Below are positions 22,351 through 50,313 of a DNA stretch of 55,332 bases, one piece after another. Position numbers and translations under genes: made by a program. The notes below the pieces were generated by a model. The model was given only the letters and a program-made list of their open reading frames with translations. It was not told the DNA's origin and made no database searches. The stretch is taken from positions 1 to 55,332 of the forward strand of contig CAMCVO010000009.1 of NCBI GenBank assembly GCA_945881945.1. The letters run 5' to 3'. Each line of letters begins with the position of its first letter. Position 1 is the first letter of the stretch. This stretch comes from Bifidobacterium breve. Lineage in GTDB: Bacteria; Actinomycetota; Actinomycetes; Nanopelagicales; Nanopelagicaceae.

Positions 22351-23037
22351 TTAAGGGTAGCCGAGGATCTTTCGTGCTCGTGCCGGATAATCAGTTATTA
22401 CAGCTTGCACACCTAAATCCTGGCAAAGTTTCAAATCATCCTCATCATTTACTGTCCAAACCAACACTTGTTTGCCCCGCTGGTGCTGAGTCACTACAAA
22501 TGAGTGATCTGATTTGATTATTGCAATGTTTGCAGCAACTATTTTAGTTGGATTAACTCTTGCAAGAATCTTTCTACTAAGTAAATAACCGCTTTGATAA
22601 CCGCTTTTTTTATTTCGTAATGTTGCAAGGTAGGAGAAGGAGATCAGAAATACTTGTATGCCACTTTTCTCAATCTGTTTCATCTTAGTTGCAAGCAATT
22701 TATGGATCTGTTTTTCAATCTCACCGCCTGATGGAACTGGGTGTTTTGATTCAATTAGTAAATCCTTTTGATTTAAAATAGCAAGATCTAGTAATTGATC
22801 TAATCTAAAGGGATTGATGCTTTGCCTTAACTCGGCGTAATCCTTATCCGCTACTTTAAAATCTAATTTTGAGAGCCGCTTAGCATTGCTATCGTGGTAG
22901 CAAATGATCTGCTTGTCCTTTGTTAACCTAACATCACACTCAAAGCCATCTGCGCCTTGCTCAACAGCTGCTAAGTAAGCCGCTTCTGAGCCTTCAGTAA
23001 ATTCACCAGATGCACCACGGTGGGCATAGATTCGCAT
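22351..23037 (-). CDS. Glycerophosphodiester phosphodiesterase family protein
   Basis: 228 residues, cytoplasmic. The GDPD barrel is marked by AHRGASGEFTEGS, GFECDVRLTKD and LLIESKHP, which hold the catalytic His and the metal-binding Glu/Asp residues. The end has the usual VWTVNDEDDL and ITDYP. It likely hydrolyses glycerophosphodiesters from lipid turnover. Three bases separate it from pheA. It is divergent from the PP2C gene across a short spacer. Confidence 0.9.
   Translation of the reverse strand: MRIYAHRGASGEFTEGSEAAYLAAVEQGADGFECDVRLTKDKQIICYHDSNAKRLSKLDFKVADKDYAELRQSINPFRLDQLLDLAILNQKDLLIESKHPVPSGGEIEKQIHKLLATKMKQIEKSGIQVFLISFSYLATLRNKKSGYQSGYLLSRKILARVNPTKIVAANIAIIKSDHSFVVTQHQRGKQVLVWTVNDEDDLKLCQDLGVQAVITDYPARARKILGYP
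22354..22359 (-). promoter_or_regulatory. -10 element of leaderless pheA promoter
   Basis: Minus-strand TACCCT, six bases, then ATG at 22347-22345. The hexamer is inside the last codons of the GDPD gene. Confidence 0.5.
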
Positions 23038-23088
23038 GAATTGCCCAGCCTTTCTTTTCTGAATCGATTATGTGGTGAGATTGGCTCT

Positions 23089-23865
23089 ATGAAATGGCAG
23101 TTTAACTCCTTTGCGCAAACAGATCTTGGTTTGGTGCGCGAGGGTAATGAGGATTCGGCTGTGAGTTGCGCAAATTTAATTGCTGTTGCCGATGGCATGG
23201 GTGGGCATGCTGGTGGCGAGGTTGCCTCTGCGATCGCCATTGATTCATTAATTAAATTAATACCACTACTTGCAGATGAAAGTATCGATCTTGATTCTCG
23301 GGAAGATTTATTTCTAAACATCACACATGAAATTGACCTAAAGATTTTAGATCAAAGTAAATCCCACCCTGAGTTATCTGGCATGGGAACCACCTTAACT
23401 GCGCTGAGTATTTTGAATAACAATGTTGAACTACTACATGTAGGAGATTCAAGATGTTATCGATTTCGTGATAACAAACTTCACCAATTAAGTTATGACC
23501 ACACTGTGATGCAGGAGTTATTAGATCAAGGCCGGCTTACCCCACAGGAGGTATTTGATCACCCACAGCGATCCTTACTTACTCAAGCTTTGATGGGAGA
23601 CTCAGGACTTGATCCAATTTTGCTCACCTTTGAAATTAAAAAAAGTGATTGCTTTTTATTGTGTAGTGATGGCCTAACCAATGTTTTATCTGATTATGAG
23701 ATCAGTAAAATCATCGAAGCAAATAAAGATGATCAAATCCCGCATGCTTTAATAAAAGAGGTCAGGTCAAAGGGGGCGCCAGATAACATCACAATTATTT
23801 GGAGTCAGGTAACCTCAGATAACCAGCCAGTTAAGATCATAAAATTCGGAGCAGCTAATGAATAA
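23089..23865 (+). CDS. PP2C-family Ser/Thr phosphatase (PstP-like, catalytic domain only)
   Basis: About 258 residues from the ATG at 23089. The metal-binding PP2C motifs are present: REGNEDS, ADGMGGHAGGE, HVGDSRCYRF, LLCSDGLTN and GAPDNITII. It should dephosphorylate substrates of the adjacent PknB-type kinase. Actinobacterial PstP normally continues into a transmembrane helix and an extracellular domain; both are missing here, so this is a soluble minimal version. A longer frame from 23020 would overlap the divergent GDPD gene and does not look like the family. The 3' end overlaps the kinase start by eight bases. Confidence 0.9.
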   Translation: MKWQFNSFAQTDLGLVREGNEDSAVSCANLIAVADGMGGHAGGEVASAIAIDSLIKLIPLLADESIDLDSREDLFLNITHEIDLKILDQSKSHPELSGMGTTLTALSILNNNVELLHVGDSRCYRFRDNKLHQLSYDHTVMQELLDQGRLTPQEVFDHPQRSLLTQALMGDSGLDPILLTFEIKKSDCFLLCSDGLTNVLSDYEISKIIEANKDDQIPHALIKEVRSKGAPDNITIIWSQVTSDNQPVKIIKFGAANE

Positions 23866-25402
23866 TCCTGTAAATCAGTTAGCCGCTGGCCGCTACTTAG
23901 TTGGTCAGATGATCGGTACTGGTGGCATGGCAGATGTTTATTTAGGAAAAGACACCAGACTAAACCGAGAGGTAGCGATAAAGGTTTTACGGCGGGATTT
24001 AGCAAAAGATCCAGCCTTTGTGGCTAGATTTAAAAAGGAGGCGTTAGCTGCTGGTGGATTAAGCCACCCAGGAATTGTGGCAGTTTATGACTCTGGTGAA
24101 GAGAATGATTCACCATATATTGTGATGGAGTTAATCTCTGGAATTACTCTGCGTCAGTTAATGTTAAATGGTGAAATCTTGCAGGTGAAATCACTTGAAA
24201 TTATCAAAGGAATTTTGCAAGCACTTGATTATTCGCACAGCAAAGGAATTGTGCATCGAGATATTAAGCCTGGAAACATCATGATTACTGACTCTGGTGA
24301 TATTAAGGTTATGGATTTTGGTATTGCTAGAGCAACCGATGATATTGGTGCAACAATGACTAGTACCTGGAATGTTGTAGGTACAGCCCAATATTTATCT
24401 CCTGAGCAGGCAACTGGTGAGATTGCCGATGGTAGAAGTGATCTTTATTCACTTGGTTGCGTGATGTATGAGTTATTGACTGGTAGACCACCATTTACCG
24501 GTGACACACCAGTTTCAGTTGCCTATCAACATGTATCTGCACCCATAACGCCAGCATCACAAATAAATCCAAACCTTGATACAAATATTGATCGGATGCT
24601 TGAGGTGGTTCTAGCTAAACAACCATCAAATAGATATCAAGATGCCAAGGCGATGCTGACAGATATAGAACATGTGATTAAAGGTGAACCTGTTACGACC
24701 AAGATTAAAAAGGTTATCCCACGGCGTAAATTAATCACCATCCTTGCTTTAGCGGTATCCCTGATCGCATTAATAAGTGGTGGTTACCTGGTTACTTCAC
24801 CAAATGGGGCAACAGTTAAAGTGCCAAATGTGGTTGGTTTAACTGAAGATGAAGCTAGAGCATTACTTAAAAGTTTTAATATAAATATTGAACGAGCACC
24901 TGATGCAAAAATTCCAATTAATCGAGTTGCATCGCAATTACCACTTGCAACTGCGGATGCAACAGCGGGAAGTAGTGTGACTCTAACTATCTCAGATGGA
25001 CCTGGGAACACCACTATTCCAGTTGGTTTAATTGGCTTATCCTTAGAGGAGGCCAGATATAGATTGTCCTCTGCCGGACTACTTATTTCCCAAACAATTG
25101 CAATTGATTCAGATCAAGCACCAGGTGTTGTGCTAAGTATCAATCCAGTTCCAGGAACCACAATTACTGCTGGTAGCGGTGTAGTACTTGAGATTGCAAG
25201 TGGAAGTGTGCAGGTGCCATCACTGGTTGGTTTAAATGAGATTGGCGCTAAGACTGTATTAACTCAAGCAGGCTTCCTCATCCGGGAGATAACTGCTTAT
25301 GATCCTAGTAAGGCACTTGGAGAAATTCTTGCTCAAGCTCCAGAGGCTGGTGCTACTAAGACAATTGGCAGCATTGTCACTATTACAATCAATAAGAATT
25401 AA
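23858..25402 (+). CDS. pknB: PASTA-domain Ser/Thr protein kinase (PknB type)
   Basis: 514 residues. The Hanks kinase domain has the G-loop GTGGMADVYLG (20-30), Lys42 in AIKVL, HRD at 133-135, DFG at 153-155 and a Thr/Ser-rich activation loop (TMTST, ~167-171). A single transmembrane helix spans ~291-312. Three extracellular PASTA repeats begin near residues 319, 385 and 451, each opening like VPNVVGL. It senses muropeptides or lipid II and controls cell-wall growth. Mycobacterial PknB has four PASTA repeats. It follows the phosphatase with an eight-base overlap. rodA, pbpA, pknA and FHA genes, usual neighbours, are absent. Confidence 0.95.
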   Translation: MNNPVNQLAAGRYLVGQMIGTGGMADVYLGKDTRLNREVAIKVLRRDLAKDPAFVARFKKEALAAGGLSHPGIVAVYDSGEENDSPYIVMELISGITLRQLMLNGEILQVKSLEIIKGILQALDYSHSKGIVHRDIKPGNIMITDSGDIKVMDFGIARATDDIGATMTSTWNVVGTAQYLSPEQATGEIADGRSDLYSLGCVMYELLTGRPPFTGDTPVSVAYQHVSAPITPASQINPNLDTNIDRMLEVVLAKQPSNRYQDAKAMLTDIEHVIKGEPVTTKIKKVIPRRKLITILALAVSLIALISGGYLVTSPNGATVKVPNVVGLTEDEARALLKSFNINIERAPDAKIPINRVASQLPLATADATAGSSVTLTISDGPGNTTIPVGLIGLSLEEARYRLSSAGLLISQTIAIDSDQAPGVVLSINPVPGTTITAGSGVVLEIASGSVQVPSLVGLNEIGAKTVLTQAGFLIREITAYDPSKALGEILAQAPEAGATKTIGSIVTITINKN

Positions 25403-26037
25403 ACTTTTATAACTACTGGAGACAACCCTTCAGATCTTGCGCGAGCGCCCTTATCACCACAGATCTGCAGCCAATTACCAATTATTTGATAACCATGTTC
25501 GGTTAGGACCGACTCTGGATGAAATTGAACACCACAAATTGCTAATGTTTTATGTTGTATTGCCATTACAACACCAGACTCGGTAGTACCTGTTACCTCA
25601 AGAGAATCTGGCAAACTCTCTCGTTCAACAGCAAGTGAGTGATAGCGAGTTGCAGTAAATGGGGAGGGGATATTTTCTAAAACTGATTTGCTTTGGTGAG
25701 TCACAAGTGAGGTTTTACCATGCAGTAATTCTGGTGCTCTGGAGACTGTTGCACCATAAGCCACCGCAATTGCTTGATGACCTAGGCATACGCCAAGGAG
25801 TGGAATCTTTTTATCGGCGCAGTACTTAACTAACTCAATACTTATGCCAGCAGACTCTGGCGTACCAGGGCCGGGTGAGATTAAGACGCCATCATATTTA
25901 TCTGCTTGGCTTACCTTTATTGAATTATTTCTAACCACCATGCACTCTGCCCCTAACTGCTGCAGATACTGAACTAGGTTAAAGACAAAGGAGTCATAAT
26001 TGTCGATAACTAGAATCTTGCGGGCTGTGGTGCTCAT
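25399..26037 (-). CDS. Glutamine amidotransferase, anthranilate/aminodeoxychorismate synthase component II
   Basis: 212 residues, class I glutamine amidotransferase. The nucleophile Cys84 is in GVCLGHQAI, the catalytic His-Glu in VQFHPES, and the oxyanion strand in SPGPGTP. It provides ammonia to a TrpE- or PabB-type partner, not in this window. Its place between pknB and crgA matches the gene named trpG/pabA at the same position in mycobacteria. The stop shares a TTAA with the convergent pknB stop. It is divergent from crgA with only 27 bases between start codons. Confidence 0.9.
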   Translation of the reverse strand: MSTTARKILVIDNYDSFVFNLVQYLQQLGAECMVVRNNSIKVSQADKYDGVLISPGPGTPESAGISIELVKYCADKKIPLLGVCLGHQAIAVAYGATVSRAPELLHGKTSLVTHQSKSVLENIPSPFTATRYHSLAVERESLPDSLEVTGTTESGVVMAIQHKTLAICGVQFHPESVLTEHGYQIIGNWLQICGDKGARARSEGLSPVVIKV

Positions 26038-45167: not shown

Positions 45168-46261
45168 AAAGAATATTTCTTTTTACTCTAATGCTGTTAC
45201 TACCAACCTTATTTTCTATACCGCAGGCACAAGCAGTCCAAGAAATTGTCATTACCGAACCCACCTATCGAATGTCAGATGGTGTTTTTATTGATGACCA
45301 ATTAGCGCTAAAACTAGCGCCTAGTGGCAGTTTAGGAGTTTTGATTTATGCCCCGACCAAAGCTGTAAGGAGTTGGCAAATAGATCCTGCAACTATTGCA
45401 GAGATAGTTGCCATGAGTGATGGCTACAGCCTTTCAGATGGTTCAGCGCCAGTTGGCCAACAGATTGCCAAGGATTGGTTGCTTCAATTCATTAAGGTCA
45501 GCAAGAATGAAAAAGTCTCAGTAATTACCTATGGAAACCCCTCTGCTTACTGGGTTGATCAGATAATAAACAAACAGATTACATATATAGATGCCTATGG
45601 CAAAATTTTCTTAGAAACATTGTTAGGAAAGGCTACTGGTCAAAGCTTGGTTAAAAACATCCAAAAACAAAGCTTGAGTAAGCAAAATATTAGTTTACTT
45701 AAGTATGCCCAACAGCAGATTGATTTACTTGGAACGTTAGTTGATCAGAAAGAGTTACTTTCATATCAGTTACGGCTAGCACAAATCTTAAATCCTGGCA
45801 TTAAAAAAGGTAGTTTAAGCGCTTTGTTGGAAGATTATAATCAGTCTATTGCGCAGCTTAGAAATAAATTGAAAGTTACCAAGAGTAGATTTACTGTTAC
45901 CTCTGCCAAAGAGGAATTGCCGGTTACTTTAATAAATAATTTTGACCAAACAGTTAATTTGAAATTAAGTGTTCGAGCATTAAACAGTAAGGTTTTAGTA
46001 ACTCCAATCCAACAGATTGCACTTGAGGCAAAATCTAAACAGCAAGTTCTACTACCAGTTGAAGTTTTAGCCTCTGGTGAATCATCATTACTTGCACAGC
46101 TAACTAACCTAGAGAATAAACCGGTTGGGTATCCAGTAAATATAAATCTAAAACTATCTGTAATTAGTCCAGTTGCCACTTGGATTACCTCTGGTGCTGC
46201 AGTACTTTTATTTATCGCTGCCTTAATCCAAAGCCTTCGTAGAGTAAGGAGGCGAAAGTAA
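45164..46261 (+). CDS. Secreted/anchored DUF6049-like protein, shortened
   Basis: 365 residues. An N-terminal signal peptide (MKRIFLFTLMLLLPTLFSIP, cleavage near AQAVQ) precedes an extracytoplasmic region. A C-terminal transmembrane helix (ITSGAAVLLFIAALIQSL) ends in the basic RRVRRRK. Position between the Nudix gene and murJ corresponds to the DUF6049 protein of other actinobacteria (Rv3909 type, roughly 800 residues), so this is under half the normal size. The homology is inferred mostly from position and topology. Function unknown, possibly tied to MurJ. It ends one base into the murJ ATG. Confidence 0.7.
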   Translation: MKRIFLFTLMLLLPTLFSIPQAQAVQEIVITEPTYRMSDGVFIDDQLALKLAPSGSLGVLIYAPTKAVRSWQIDPATIAEIVAMSDGYSLSDGSAPVGQQIAKDWLLQFIKVSKNEKVSVITYGNPSAYWVDQIINKQITYIDAYGKIFLETLLGKATGQSLVKNIQKQSLSKQNISLLKYAQQQIDLLGTLVDQKELLSYQLRLAQILNPGIKKGSLSALLEDYNQSIAQLRNKLKVTKSRFTVTSAKEELPVTLINNFDQTVNLKLSVRALNSKVLVTPIQQIALEAKSKQQVLLPVEVLASGESSLLAQLTNLENKPVGYPVNINLKLSVISPVATWITSGAAVLLFIAALIQSLRRVRRRK

Positions 46262-47850
46262 TGTCGGATAATCACTTGTTTAAAGCCACTTCCACCATGG
46301 CATTAGGCACGATAGCTTCTCGTGTTACTGGGTTAATTAGAAATTTGATGTTAGCTGCACTTCTTGGAACTGCAATTCTGGGTGATACATACAATGTTGC
46401 AAACACTATGCCAAACATTTTGTATAACTTGTTAATTGGTGGTGCCTTAACGGCGGTCTTTGTTCCGCAAATTGTCAGATCTTTACGAGATACCGATCAA
46501 GGTTCTGCCTTTATCTCTAGGTTATTTACAGTTACGGTGACTTTTCTATTTGCGCTGACAGCACTGGGAATTTTCATGGCCCCCCAATTAGTAACTATCT
46601 ATGCTCCAGAGTACGCCGGCTCTAAAGAATTTGAAGTCACCGTAACTTTAATGCGTTATTGCCTGCCACAAATATTTTTCCTAGGTCTATTTGCACTGCT
46701 TGGACAAATTGCTAATGCAAAAGATCGATTTGGGCCAATGATGTGGGCCCCGGTTTTAAACAACTTAATGGCAATTGCTCTCTTTTACTTCTTATTAGTA
46801 AGTCGCGGTGATATTTCCTTGGCAAATATCTCAAGTCAAGATCTACTTTGGTTAGGGCTAGGAACTTCAGCTGGATATTTGGCTCAGGCCTTAATTTTAT
46901 TTCCAGTAGTTTTTAAGTCAGGTGTAAGGCTTTCACTGAGATTTGATTGGGGTAACTCACAAATCATTAAATCATTTAAGTTGGCTGGTTGGAGTCTTGT
47001 ATATGCAATGATTTCACAGTTATCTTATTTAGTTACAATAAATATTGCCACCTCTGCCGCAGTCAAATCAGCTGCTGATGGATTATCCACTGGTGTTGGT
47101 TATACCCCATATGCAAATGCTTATTTGATATTGATCTTGCCACACTCAATTATTACCGTCTCAATAGTAACTGTTCTCCTACCTAAGTTATCAAACTTGG
47201 TGATTGATAAAAGATATAAAGATGTCTCAGATTCAATGTCTTTGACAATTAGGTTGATGGGTATTTTTATTATCCCTGCAGCTATTTTATTTTTAGTATT
47301 TGGTGAGGTTATTGCCAAAGTATTGTTCTTTAGTATCCCAACAGAGGATGCAAGTTATTTAGGACTTACCCTTTCTGCCTTTGCTTTGGGATTAATCCCG
47401 GTGAGCATTAATTTGGTTTTACTTCGTGGGTTAAATGCTTTTGAAAATCTTAAATCCCAGGTGTTGGGTAATTTTATTATGAATCTAATCTCGGTGGTTT
47501 TATCATTAATTGCTGCAAGTTATTTAGAGCCAAAATGGGTTACGGTGGGACTCGCTGTGATATTTACAGTTCACTACTTTATTGGCGCTGGCATATCTTT
47601 TATTTTGATAAAGAAACATGGGGTAGAAATACCGATATTGAAATTGGCCAGTTTTTACCTAAGATTAATCTTAATCTTTGCAGCTGCAGCCTTGCCGGTC
47701 TGGCTTTTTAGATCCTCTGCCCCAGGCGGGAATTTTATTTACCTAATACTTGTTTTACTCTCATCAGCGGTTTTCTATCTATTGTTACTAAGAGCTCTAA
47801 AAATAAGTGAGGTCACAACCTTGATAAATGTAATTAAAGGCCGAAGGTAA
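46261..47850 (+). CDS. murJ: Lipid II flippase MurJ (MviN)
   Basis: 529 residues with about 14 membrane helices. Signature stretches are TMALGTIASRVTGLIRNLMLA near the N-terminus (core ASRVTGLIRN), YNVANTMPNILYNLLIGGAL, and the central LPHSIITVSIVTVLLPKLS. It flips lipid II across the membrane for wall synthesis. Mycobacterial MviN has an added cytoplasmic pseudokinase and extracellular domain; this version stops after the transporter core. Overlap TAATG with the preceding gene. Confidence 0.95.
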   Translation: MSDNHLFKATSTMALGTIASRVTGLIRNLMLAALLGTAILGDTYNVANTMPNILYNLLIGGALTAVFVPQIVRSLRDTDQGSAFISRLFTVTVTFLFALTALGIFMAPQLVTIYAPEYAGSKEFEVTVTLMRYCLPQIFFLGLFALLGQIANAKDRFGPMMWAPVLNNLMAIALFYFLLVSRGDISLANISSQDLLWLGLGTSAGYLAQALILFPVVFKSGVRLSLRFDWGNSQIIKSFKLAGWSLVYAMISQLSYLVTINIATSAAVKSAADGLSTGVGYTPYANAYLILILPHSIITVSIVTVLLPKLSNLVIDKRYKDVSDSMSLTIRLMGIFIIPAAILFLVFGEVIAKVLFFSIPTEDASYLGLTLSAFALGLIPVSINLVLLRGLNAFENLKSQVLGNFIMNLISVVLSLIAASYLEPKWVTVGLAVIFTVHYFIGAGISFILIKKHGVEIPILKLASFYLRLILIFAAAALPVWLFRSSAPGGNFIYLILVLLSSAVFYLLLLRALKISEVTTLINVIKGRR

Positions 47851-47862: not shown

Positions 47863-48792
47863 ATGAGCGATATAAACGAGGTAGTAATTGTTGGTTCTGG
47901 TCCTGCTGGCTATACAGCTGCTATTTATGCCGCAAGAGCTCAACTAAAACCAATTATTTATGAAGGCTCAGTTACAGCAGGTGGTGCGTTGATGAATACC
48001 ACTGAGGTTGAAAATTTTCCTGGATTTGCAACTGGAGTTATGGGACCGGAGTTGATGGAGGCAATGCGCAAGCAGGTTGAGCGCTTTGATGCAAAAATTG
48101 TTACTGATGACATTGTTTCAATGAAATTAACTGGTGATATAAAAGAGTTAACAGATGGCTCTGGAAATACTGTTAGAGCTAAAGCGGTGATATTAGCGAT
48201 GGGGTCGGCATATAAAGAGATTGGATTGCCAAACGAAAAAAGATTATCTGGTCGTGGCGTATCTTGGTGTGCAACCTGTGATGGATTCTTTTTCCGAGAA
48301 CAAATGATTGCAGTGGTTGGTGGAGGTGACTCAGCTATGGAGGAGGCTAACTTCTTAACTAAATTTGCAAGTAAGGTGGTATTAATACATCGCCGAGATA
48401 AATTTCGAGCCTCAAAAATTATGATTGATCGCGCTGCTGCCAACCCCAAGATAGAGTTTCTATTCAATCATGAAGTAATTGATGTTTTAGGCGAAGACAA
48501 GGTGGTTGGCCTAAAACTGAAAAATACCCAAACTGGTGAAGAAAGTGTTAAAGATTTCACCGGCTTATTTGTTGCAATTGGGCACTTGCCGCGAAGTGAG
48601 TTGGTGAAAGGTCAGGTGGAGTTAAATAATGATGGTTATGTGCAGGTTGAGGGAAGAGGCACTAAAACAAAGATTTCTGGCGTTTTTGCCTGTGGTGATT
48701 TAGTTGATTTCACATACCGCCAGGCAATTACCGCAGCTGGTTCTGGCTGCCAAGCTGCCTTGGATGCCGAGCGTTATTTAGCAGGACATTAA
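47863..48792 (+). CDS. trxB: Thioredoxin reductase
   Basis: 309 residues. The FAD motif is [17 protein letters not shown], the redox-active pair is WCATCDG, the NADPH motif is [14 protein letters not shown], and the C-terminal FAD contact is [21 protein letters not shown] (core [11 protein letters not shown]). It reduces the thioredoxin encoded next. A leaderless -10 suggests it can be transcribed independently of murJ. Confidence 0.97.
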
Positions 48793-48832
48793 GCATTAAA
48801 AGTAGAATAAGTAGATAACCAAAGGAGAGAAA

Positions 48833-49156
48833 ATGGCCACAACAAAGGTAACTACAGCTGATTTTGATTCAGTTGTTTTAAAAAGTGCAACACCAGTTTT
48901 AGTTGATTTCTGGGCGGAATGGTGTGGCCCGTGCCGTGCTGTTGGACCGATTTTAGAAGAGATCTCCAATGAGTATGGCGATAAGCTAAAAATTGTTAAG
49001 TTAAATACCGATGAAGAAGGCTCAATTGCGATGAAGTATGGCATCTCATCAATTCCAACTATGAATGTATTTGTAGGTGGAGAGATAGTAAAAACAATTG
49101 TGGGTGCCAAACCTAAGCCAGCGCTGCTGAAAGACCTAGAAAATTTCATTAAATAA
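48833..49156 (+). CDS. trxA: Thioredoxin
   Basis: 107 residues, with active site WCGPCR and cis-Pro region SIPTMNVF. A strong AAAGGAG ribosome-binding site lies just before the ATG. It follows trxB by 40 bases. Confidence 0.97.
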   Translation: MATTKVTTADFDSVVLKSATPVLVDFWAEWCGPCRAVGPILEEISNEYGDKLKIVKLNTDEEGSIAMKYGISSIPTMNVFVGGEIVKTIVGAKPKPALLKDLENFIK

Positions 49157-49182: not shown

Positions 49183-50313
49183 ATGAACGATCTGCCAAAA
49201 TTAGGTGATCGTTCTGGTGCGATTGAACTAATCTCAAATACTTTGCTGCGGTTAGGATTTATCTCATCACCTTCTGATATTTTTGATGAGAAATTAACTC
49301 AAGGCGTGAAAGCATTTCAGCAAGATCGAGGATTAACTGTTAATGGGCTTATCAACGAAATCACTGCCCGATCATTAGAAGAAGCAAGGTTTAGACTTGG
49401 TGATCGAGTTTTGGTATTTAACACAACAGCATTAATGCGTGGTGATGATGTTGCTAATTTGCAAGATCGGTTAATTCAAATGGGATTTAACTGTGGCAAG
49501 GTTGATGGGGTTTATGAGATAACTACTGAAAATGCAGTAAAGGAGTTTCAAAAATCAGTAGGGATACTTTCAGATGGTAGGTGTGGCCCGGCAACCTTAA
49601 TCTCGTTGATGAGATTAGCGAAAACGGTTTCTGGTGGTGCACCATCTGCATTGAGAGAGAGCATTAACCATTCAGTCAGGTCACCAGCACTAGCAAATAA
49701 AGTTATTGTGATTGATCCTAGTTGGGGTGGTGAATTCACCGGTGAAAGCGCAAATGGAGTTAATGAATCAGAGATTGTTTTTGATTTGGCTCAAAGATTA
49801 GAAGGAAGATTAATCGCCCTGGGTGTAAATGTGATTTTAACTAGAAGTGCTAATAACTCACCCTTAGAAAAAGATAGAATTAAGGTTGCCAACTCGGTAA
49901 ATGCAGATTTAGTTATTGCGCTAAAAGTAGATAGTTATAAGAATGAGAAGGCCAATGGTGTTGCTACTTATTTCTATGGCCGTGAAGATAAAGGTGTTAG
50001 ATCTGTTGTTGGTGAGCGCTTTGCAAACTTAATTCAACGAGAGATATGTGCCCGAACTGATCTATTGAATTGCCACACCCATGGTAAAAGTTGGGATTTA
50101 TTGCGCCTGACTGTTGCACCTACTATAAGAATTGATCTTGGATACCTTTCAAACCCTCAAGATGCCAGGCGACTTTCTATCGCTGCTTTTCGAGACCAGT
50201 TAGCTGAGGCGATAGTTGTAGCAATACAGCGGCTTTACTTATCCACTGAAGATGACGCTAAAACTGGGACTTTAAAAATTTCAGATCTACGTAGGGCGGG
50301 AATTAGGAATTAA
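49183..50313 (+). CDS. cwlM: CwlM-like protein: two peptidoglycan-binding domains plus degenerate amidase domain
   Basis: 376 residues, no signal peptide, so cytoplasmic. Residues ~5-70 and ~75-145 are PG_binding_1-type repeats; ~172-350 is an Amidase_3-like domain. The expected zinc His of the PGHGG motif is Trp181 (DPSWGG), the second His is Lys248 (VIALKVD), and the catalytic Glu is Asp318 (RIDLGYLSNP). This predicts no hydrolase activity. In mycobacteria CwlM is a cytoplasmic PknB substrate that regulates MurA. The C-terminal TGTLKISDLRRAG (Thr361/Thr363) is a candidate phosphorylation tail. Position after trxA and before parB fits cwlM. Confidence 0.9.
   Translation: MNDLPKLGDRSGAIELISNTLLRLGFISSPSDIFDEKLTQGVKAFQQDRGLTVNGLINEITARSLEEARFRLGDRVLVFNTTALMRGDDVANLQDRLIQMGFNCGKVDGVYEITTENAVKEFQKSVGILSDGRCGPATLISLMRLAKTVSGGAPSALRESINHSVRSPALANKVIVIDPSWGGEFTGESANGVNESEIVFDLAQRLEGRLIALGVNVILTRSANNSPLEKDRIKVANSVNADLVIALKVDSYKNEKANGVATYFYGREDKGVRSVVGERFANLIQREICARTDLLNCHTHGKSWDLLRLTVAPTIRIDLGYLSNPQDARRLSIAAFRDQLAEAIVVAIQRLYLSTEDDAKTGTLKISDLRRAGIRN

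Follow-up and report, generated by a model that had tools for sequence, protein, structure and literature searches.

The window, that is, the whole stretch of 55,332 nucleotides analysed here, carries an open reading frame that a sequence-only reading had taken for CwlM, with the Amidase_3 fold and the peptidoglycan-binding repeats retained. The gene, its domains and its conserved neighbours are located as follows.

46261..47850, + strand: murJ, lipid II flippase, 529 aa, without the mycobacterial intracellular domain
47863..49156, + strand: trxB and trxA, conserved neighbours of cwlM
49183..50313, + strand: cwlM, 376 aa, catalytically degenerate Amidase_3 protein (ORF and domain search)
49438..49599, + strand: second PG_binding_1 repeat, aa 86-139, with another repeat N-terminal of it (domain search)
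49705..50229, + strand: Amidase_3 domain, aa 175-349 (domain search, 119 bits)

Two PG_binding_1 repeats were found in the ORF, in the domain order by which Boutte et al. (2016) define CwlM, and the tree and the synteny agreed with the orthology and gene neighbourhood that the same authors describe. The gene order murJ-trxB-trxA-cwlM / parB-parA was kept in the relatives wherever the contig reaches. Domain order and synteny thus bore out the identity of the gene, and the 119-bit match and the two repeats did the same for its domains. The order murJ-trxB-trxA-cwlM-parB is that of M. tuberculosis as well. Across the assembly (1.1 Mb, 86% complete), no Amidase_3 match other than this cwlM was obtained. 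CwlM was found in 55 of the 60 relatives searched and in every genome of family f1 in the class search, most of these genomes being 96-100% complete. The family f1 is called Nanopelagicaceae here, the nearest loci lying in records of Candidatus Nanopelagicaceae, Candidatus Nanopelagicus and acI-type actinobacteria. The ORF (49183-50313) is genuine and encodes the one CwlM orthologue of an actinobacterium of the Nanopelagicaceae (acI) type. Two genomes labelled 'MAG: Bifidobacterium breve' (L037 and L051), whose CwlM were 83% and 75% identical to that of the window, appear to be Nanopelagicaceae bins that carry the wrong name.

The cwlM ATG is preceded, at a distance of three codons, by an in-frame TAA, and the highest Kyte-Doolittle mean of any 17-residue stretch in the N-terminus is just 1.1. 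Since the stop codon and the low hydropathy leave no possibility of an export signal, the protein lacks a secretion signal like the CwlM of Boutte et al. (2016), as had been claimed. Over the whole of cwlM, dN/dS was 0.03-0.08, and none of the comparisons of the amidase domain exceeded 0.07, these values being approximate with synonymous sites near saturation. The gene is under strong purifying selection.

The AF2 model of CwlM, built from 22 family sequences, had a mean pLDDT of 69; the amidase domain was mostly at 75-90, and residues 74-112, residues 143-167 and the tail were poorly modelled. Approximately residues 166-358 matched solved Amidase_3 enzymes with Z of 20-27 and Foldseek E values down to 2e-15, and the N-terminal repeat region (model residues 1-77) was also matched structurally. 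Among the best 18 rows, the LytC/AmiA/CwlD-type enzymes (4rn7, 5emi, 7rag, 1jwq) shared the fold (Z 24-27, rmsd 1.3-2.5), but they possess His-Glu-His plus Glu at the active site. As a class, these amidases act outside the cytoplasm. EnvC and ActH-type proteins are likewise wall hydrolase homologues turned regulators; however, they are extracytoplasmic amidase activators and have no phospho-tail. EnvC is cited in PMC4946905.

To place the active-site residues, the protein was aligned with solved amidases and with 125 CwlM orthologues.

49723..49725, + strand: W181, replaces the first zinc His (the His of PGHGG)
49765..49767, + strand: E195, zinc-ligand Glu, retained
49924..49926, + strand: K248, replaces the second zinc His
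50071..50094, + strand: CwlM-specific motif C297-H-T-H300-G-K302-S-W304
50134..50136, + strand: D318, replaces the catalytic Glu, as in mycobacteria

The sequence-only reading had put W181, K248 and D318 at the two zinc His and the catalytic Glu and had proposed an alignment of Amidase_3 active sites across actinobacterial CwlM. The alignments agreed with these residue numbers exactly and added E195. Its statement that all key amidase residues are replaced went too far, since E195 is retained and the change of Glu to Asp at position 318 is conservative and common; 11 of the 125 CwlM have it with the other three residues intact (HEHD). The site of the window's CwlM therefore reads W-E-K-D, with three of the four Amidase_3 positions changed, and does not have the His-Glu-His zinc ligands plus catalytic Glu of an active enzyme. 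At the position of E195, Glu was present in 105 of the 125 orthologues; the complete HEHE site was present in 42. In a pairwise alignment with CwlV, which shifts by two, E197 appeared as the kept Glu; this candidate was rejected because the other enzymes and all HEHE CwlM give position 195. Since W-E-K-D was common to 23/23 sampled genomes of the window's genus and the nearest genus, it is not a product of chance or of assembly error. These comparisons support the loss of a workable metal site from the window's CwlM. The CwlM-specific motif has the general form C-x-T-H-x-K-x-W. Whether the site was intact or degenerate, C297, H300 and W304 showed higher conservation than the catalytic residues, and the C297-W304 motif may mark a groove for a ligand or a partner.

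A degenerate site is normal for CwlM and not special to the window's genome, because the 2016 description of actinobacterial CwlM (Boutte et al., PMC4946905) already included degenerate sites, a cytoplasmic location and the PTG/TGT tail, and the mycobacterial CwlM shows R-E-R-D. The Mycobacterium protein (Rv3915 / MSMEG_6935) is alike in having two PG_binding_1 repeats and Amidase_3, no signal peptide, a T-G-T tail, and both His and the catalytic Glu degenerate with the zinc-ligand Glu kept. It differs in that the window's protein has W and K for R and R, Lys at T386 and Leu for Phe at +3, and does not have the acids of the mycobacterial REEEL. The HEHE CwlM of other actinobacterial families, and of the basal f1 member G028, share the architecture, the C297-W304 motif and usually a T-G-x-L tail, but keep all four Amidase_3 residues.

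The history of the site was followed on a CwlM tree of 101 rows (quick method, SH-aLRT support). On this tree, f1 formed one clade (support 96), whose basal member G028 is still HEHE; the next branch is FEHD, most others are x-E-H-D, and the window's genus and its neighbour are W-E-K-D. Within f1, the first His and the Glu changed prior to the loss of the second His. Loss of the first His required at least 7 changes on the 101-row tree. Mycobacteria and their family were mostly R-E-R-D or L-E-R-D. Since their sister family f46 retains HEHE, the tree indicates that mycobacteria lost the site separately from f1. The decay in f1 came after the basal HEHE lineage and independently of mycobacteria. 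Across CwlM, no association was found between a degenerate site and the presence of the tail.

The C-terminus of the window's CwlM, KTGTLKISDL, contains the following feature.

50263..50274, + strand: putative phospho-acceptor tail core T361-G-T363-L364 (family alignment)

KTGTL was aligned to the tails of other CwlM. T361, G362 and L364 were invariant in 41/41 f1 members and T363 was present in 40/41, and commonest-residue identity within f1 was 88% for the tail, 79% for the amidase domain and 68-74% for the repeats. The likeness to the TGT tail of mycobacterial CwlM that had been claimed was confirmed: T361 and T363 align with T382 and T384 of M. tuberculosis CwlM, and the equivalent of T386 is Lys. 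T382 is the essential phosphosite of M. tuberculosis CwlM (PMC6180346). M. tuberculosis was not among the 346 genomes drawn, and the reference was an M. tuberculosis CwlM sequence with 95% ungapped identity to a mycobacterial genome; its T382, T384, T386, E178 and E179 fall on the published positions and its C-terminal peptide matches PMC6180346.

PknB, which had also been claimed for the window, was found beside a phosphatase gene.

23020..23865, + strand: PP2C phosphatase, pstP-like
23858..25402, + strand: pknB, PASTA Ser/Thr kinase with 3 PASTA domains, presumed kinase of CwlM (NCBIfam PknB_PASTA_kin, 529 bits)

The pknB locus (window 23020-26037) consists of these two genes and an adjoining trpG-like gene. 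The mycobacterial pknB locus includes pknA, pbpA, rodA, fhaB and fhaA, and none of these was present at 23020-26037, in agreement with the earlier remark that FHA genes are missing there. Each of the 41 genomes searched had PASTA domains. The window's genome encodes another Ser/Thr kinase with PASTA domains (635 aa; L294 2015-3922, contig C16), an alternative candidate for the CwlM kinase.

In mycobacteria, CwlM is phosphorylated by PknB, MurA is stimulated approximately 30-fold and the amidase site is dispensable (PMC4946905). How much CwlM matters for MurA in vivo is nevertheless contested, in mycobacteria too (PMC12723410). The window's CwlM is cytoplasmic and catalytically dead, and by analogy we consider it likely to regulate the synthesis of peptidoglycan precursors under the control of phosphorylation, with both the phosphorylation and the activation of MurA carried over from mycobacteria. 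Under conditions that allow growth, PknB or the second PASTA kinase would phosphorylate T361 and possibly also T363; phospho-CwlM would raise MurA activity, and starvation would reverse this. A literature search outside subscription journals returned no relevant description of a CwlM or PknB circuit in Nanopelagicales.

In the MurA of the window's genome (L034 1468-2781), Asp stands at the place of the catalytic Cys, a state shared by the whole set of 77 actinobacterial genomes in the comparison. Such an Asp-type MurA is expected to be fosfomycin-insensitive. A contact between the two proteins was proposed in 2025, in which E178/E179 of CwlM form salt bridges to R346/R355 of MurA (PMC12723410). 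The CwlM positions correspond to the following residues in the window.

49660..49665, + strand: S160-I161, at the positions of M. tuberculosis CwlM E178/E179, the proposed MurA contact (alignment)

The MurA residues at Arg346 and Arg355 were both basic in 2/22 f1 genomes vs 50/55 others, and an acid at CwlM position 178 or 179 was present in 3/22 vs 41/55. By these alignments, most f1 genomes have lost the residues for the proposed salt bridges in CwlM and in MurA alike. The CwlM acids and the MurA arginines covaried with a Fisher p of 4.5e-7, which comes mostly from one clade; by independent pairs, six pairs gave 1-3 concordant and none discordant, with a median p of 0.25. Since the contrast rests mostly on one clade, co-evolution of CwlM and MurA is not claimed. 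The f1 MurJ proteins with a readable end, the window's included, stop at 518-545 aa. In M. tuberculosis, the MurJ linker E541-F680 binds unphosphorylated CwlM (PMC6180346). As the readable f1 MurJ end before or at the start of this linker, the linker was not found in f1.

The loss of the charged residues would fit a protein that no longer regulates MurA and instead regulates or scaffolds another wall step, e.g. MurJ or lipid II traffic, through its repeats and dead groove. Furthermore, murJ lies just 5' of cwlM at each locus where the contig extends that far. However, the CwlM-MurA interface is itself a prediction, tested solely in vitro and with mild effects in vivo (PMC12723410), and the region of MurJ that binds CwlM (M. 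tuberculosis residue 541 on) is absent here. We regard a role in another wall step as unlikely.

In M. tuberculosis, the CwlM tail is read by FhaA (PMC6180346). By family searches, on which the absences in the window's genome rest, the FhaA_N domain was found in 0/14 f1 genomes vs 63/66 others, and this reading of the phospho-tail by FhaA was thus not recovered in f1. Exactly one FHA domain per genome was found in 30/30 f1 genomes (13 genera), namely the window's own 86% complete assembly and 29 relatives, and it belongs to a GarA/OdhI-like protein. In the window's genome, the GarA-like gene (L032, 1462-1908, contig C2) lies between gcvH and a MerR-type gene (gcvH-garA-merR); its best NCBIfam match was OdhI with 111 bits, below the cut-off of 200. 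Its N-terminus DLTSTLNLRQL, with the TSTL motif, resembles the CwlM tail, and most f1 GarA N-termini carry T-[STA]-T-[LI], like T-G-T-L in CwlM. The phospho-tail might accordingly be read by this sole FHA protein rather than by MurA, which would tie wall synthesis to 2-oxoglutarate metabolism. However, the GarA of L160, L161 and L179 are without the motif, and the likeness may reflect merely a shared kinase. A matched change in this lineage was considered and rejected, as T-S-T-[LMI] in GarA and T-G-x-L in CwlM are widespread in other families of the class too. A GarA reader in place of MurA is thus improbable.

Residual catalysis or metal binding through E195, D318 and others such as H300 would be compatible with the retention of E195 in most of the family, with the carboxylate that Asp318 can provide, and with the invariance of H300. 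The His ligands, however, are Trp and Lys throughout the close relatives, and CwlM with an intact site conserve H300 to the same degree, hence it is no replacement ligand. No other His or Glu was seen at the metal site by sequence, a finding that the earlier reading had named as one that would speak against it. Removal of the last two ligands from M. smegmatis CwlM did not affect growth (PMC4946905). We give this alternative very little credence. The same applies to a decaying relic whose site was lost through relaxed selection in a shrinking genome, for although the lost partner surfaces and the way in which the family shed its site residues step by step would suit it, the low dN/dS, the near-invariant tail and the presence of CwlM in nearly all relatives searched do not.

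The phosphorylation-controlled regulator of precursor synthesis remains the best explanation, and the missing mycobacterial partners, i.e. FhaA, the MurJ intracellular domain and the E178/E179 and R346/R355 pairs, weaken it, as does an earlier report, cited in PMC4946905, of amidase activity in M. tuberculosis CwlM. The sequence-only reading had suggested that the wall-control circuit survives in a minimal genome. This holds for half of it: CwlM, its tail, PknB, PP2C and MurA are present, but FhaA is missing family-wide and the MurJ domain and the charged CwlM-MurA contacts are gone. Because these are missing, CwlM would have to make its contact elsewhere on the protein, the probable sites being the conserved tail with the amidase groove (the C297-W304 patch) and the peptidoglycan-binding repeats. 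Since the tail is strongly constrained in spite of these losses, the phospho-switch of Nanopelagicaceae CwlM may have been rewired, the conserved job of the tail being a different MurA contact or a GarA-like reader; we put this forward tentatively, as possible rather than probable. If so, the mycobacterial partners are not the reason for the class-wide conservation of the tail.

What is new here is that the switch and its tail persist in a tiny-genome lake lineage though three mycobacterial partner contacts are missing. FhaA and the tail can each occur without the other: f1 has the tail without FhaA, and 25 genomes have FhaA with a CwlM lacking the T-G motif. This is a natural experiment: one family, complete genomes included, has the tail without the partners, and others have FhaA without the tail. 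The contrast tells the role that the switch has across the class apart from what mycobacteria have added to it, and offers a direct test of the CwlM-MurA interface proposed in 2025.

The CwlM without the T-G phospho-tail despite the presence of FhaA belonged to families f2, f5, f32, f34, f38, f39 and f41. In f34 and f39, most CwlM sites were degenerate too, and the tail-less CwlM may have lost the switch. The 42 CwlM with a complete HEHE site, e.g. those of L070 and L072, occur in a protein family reported to be without export signals, which raises the possibility that they cut cytoplasmic muropeptides or precursors.
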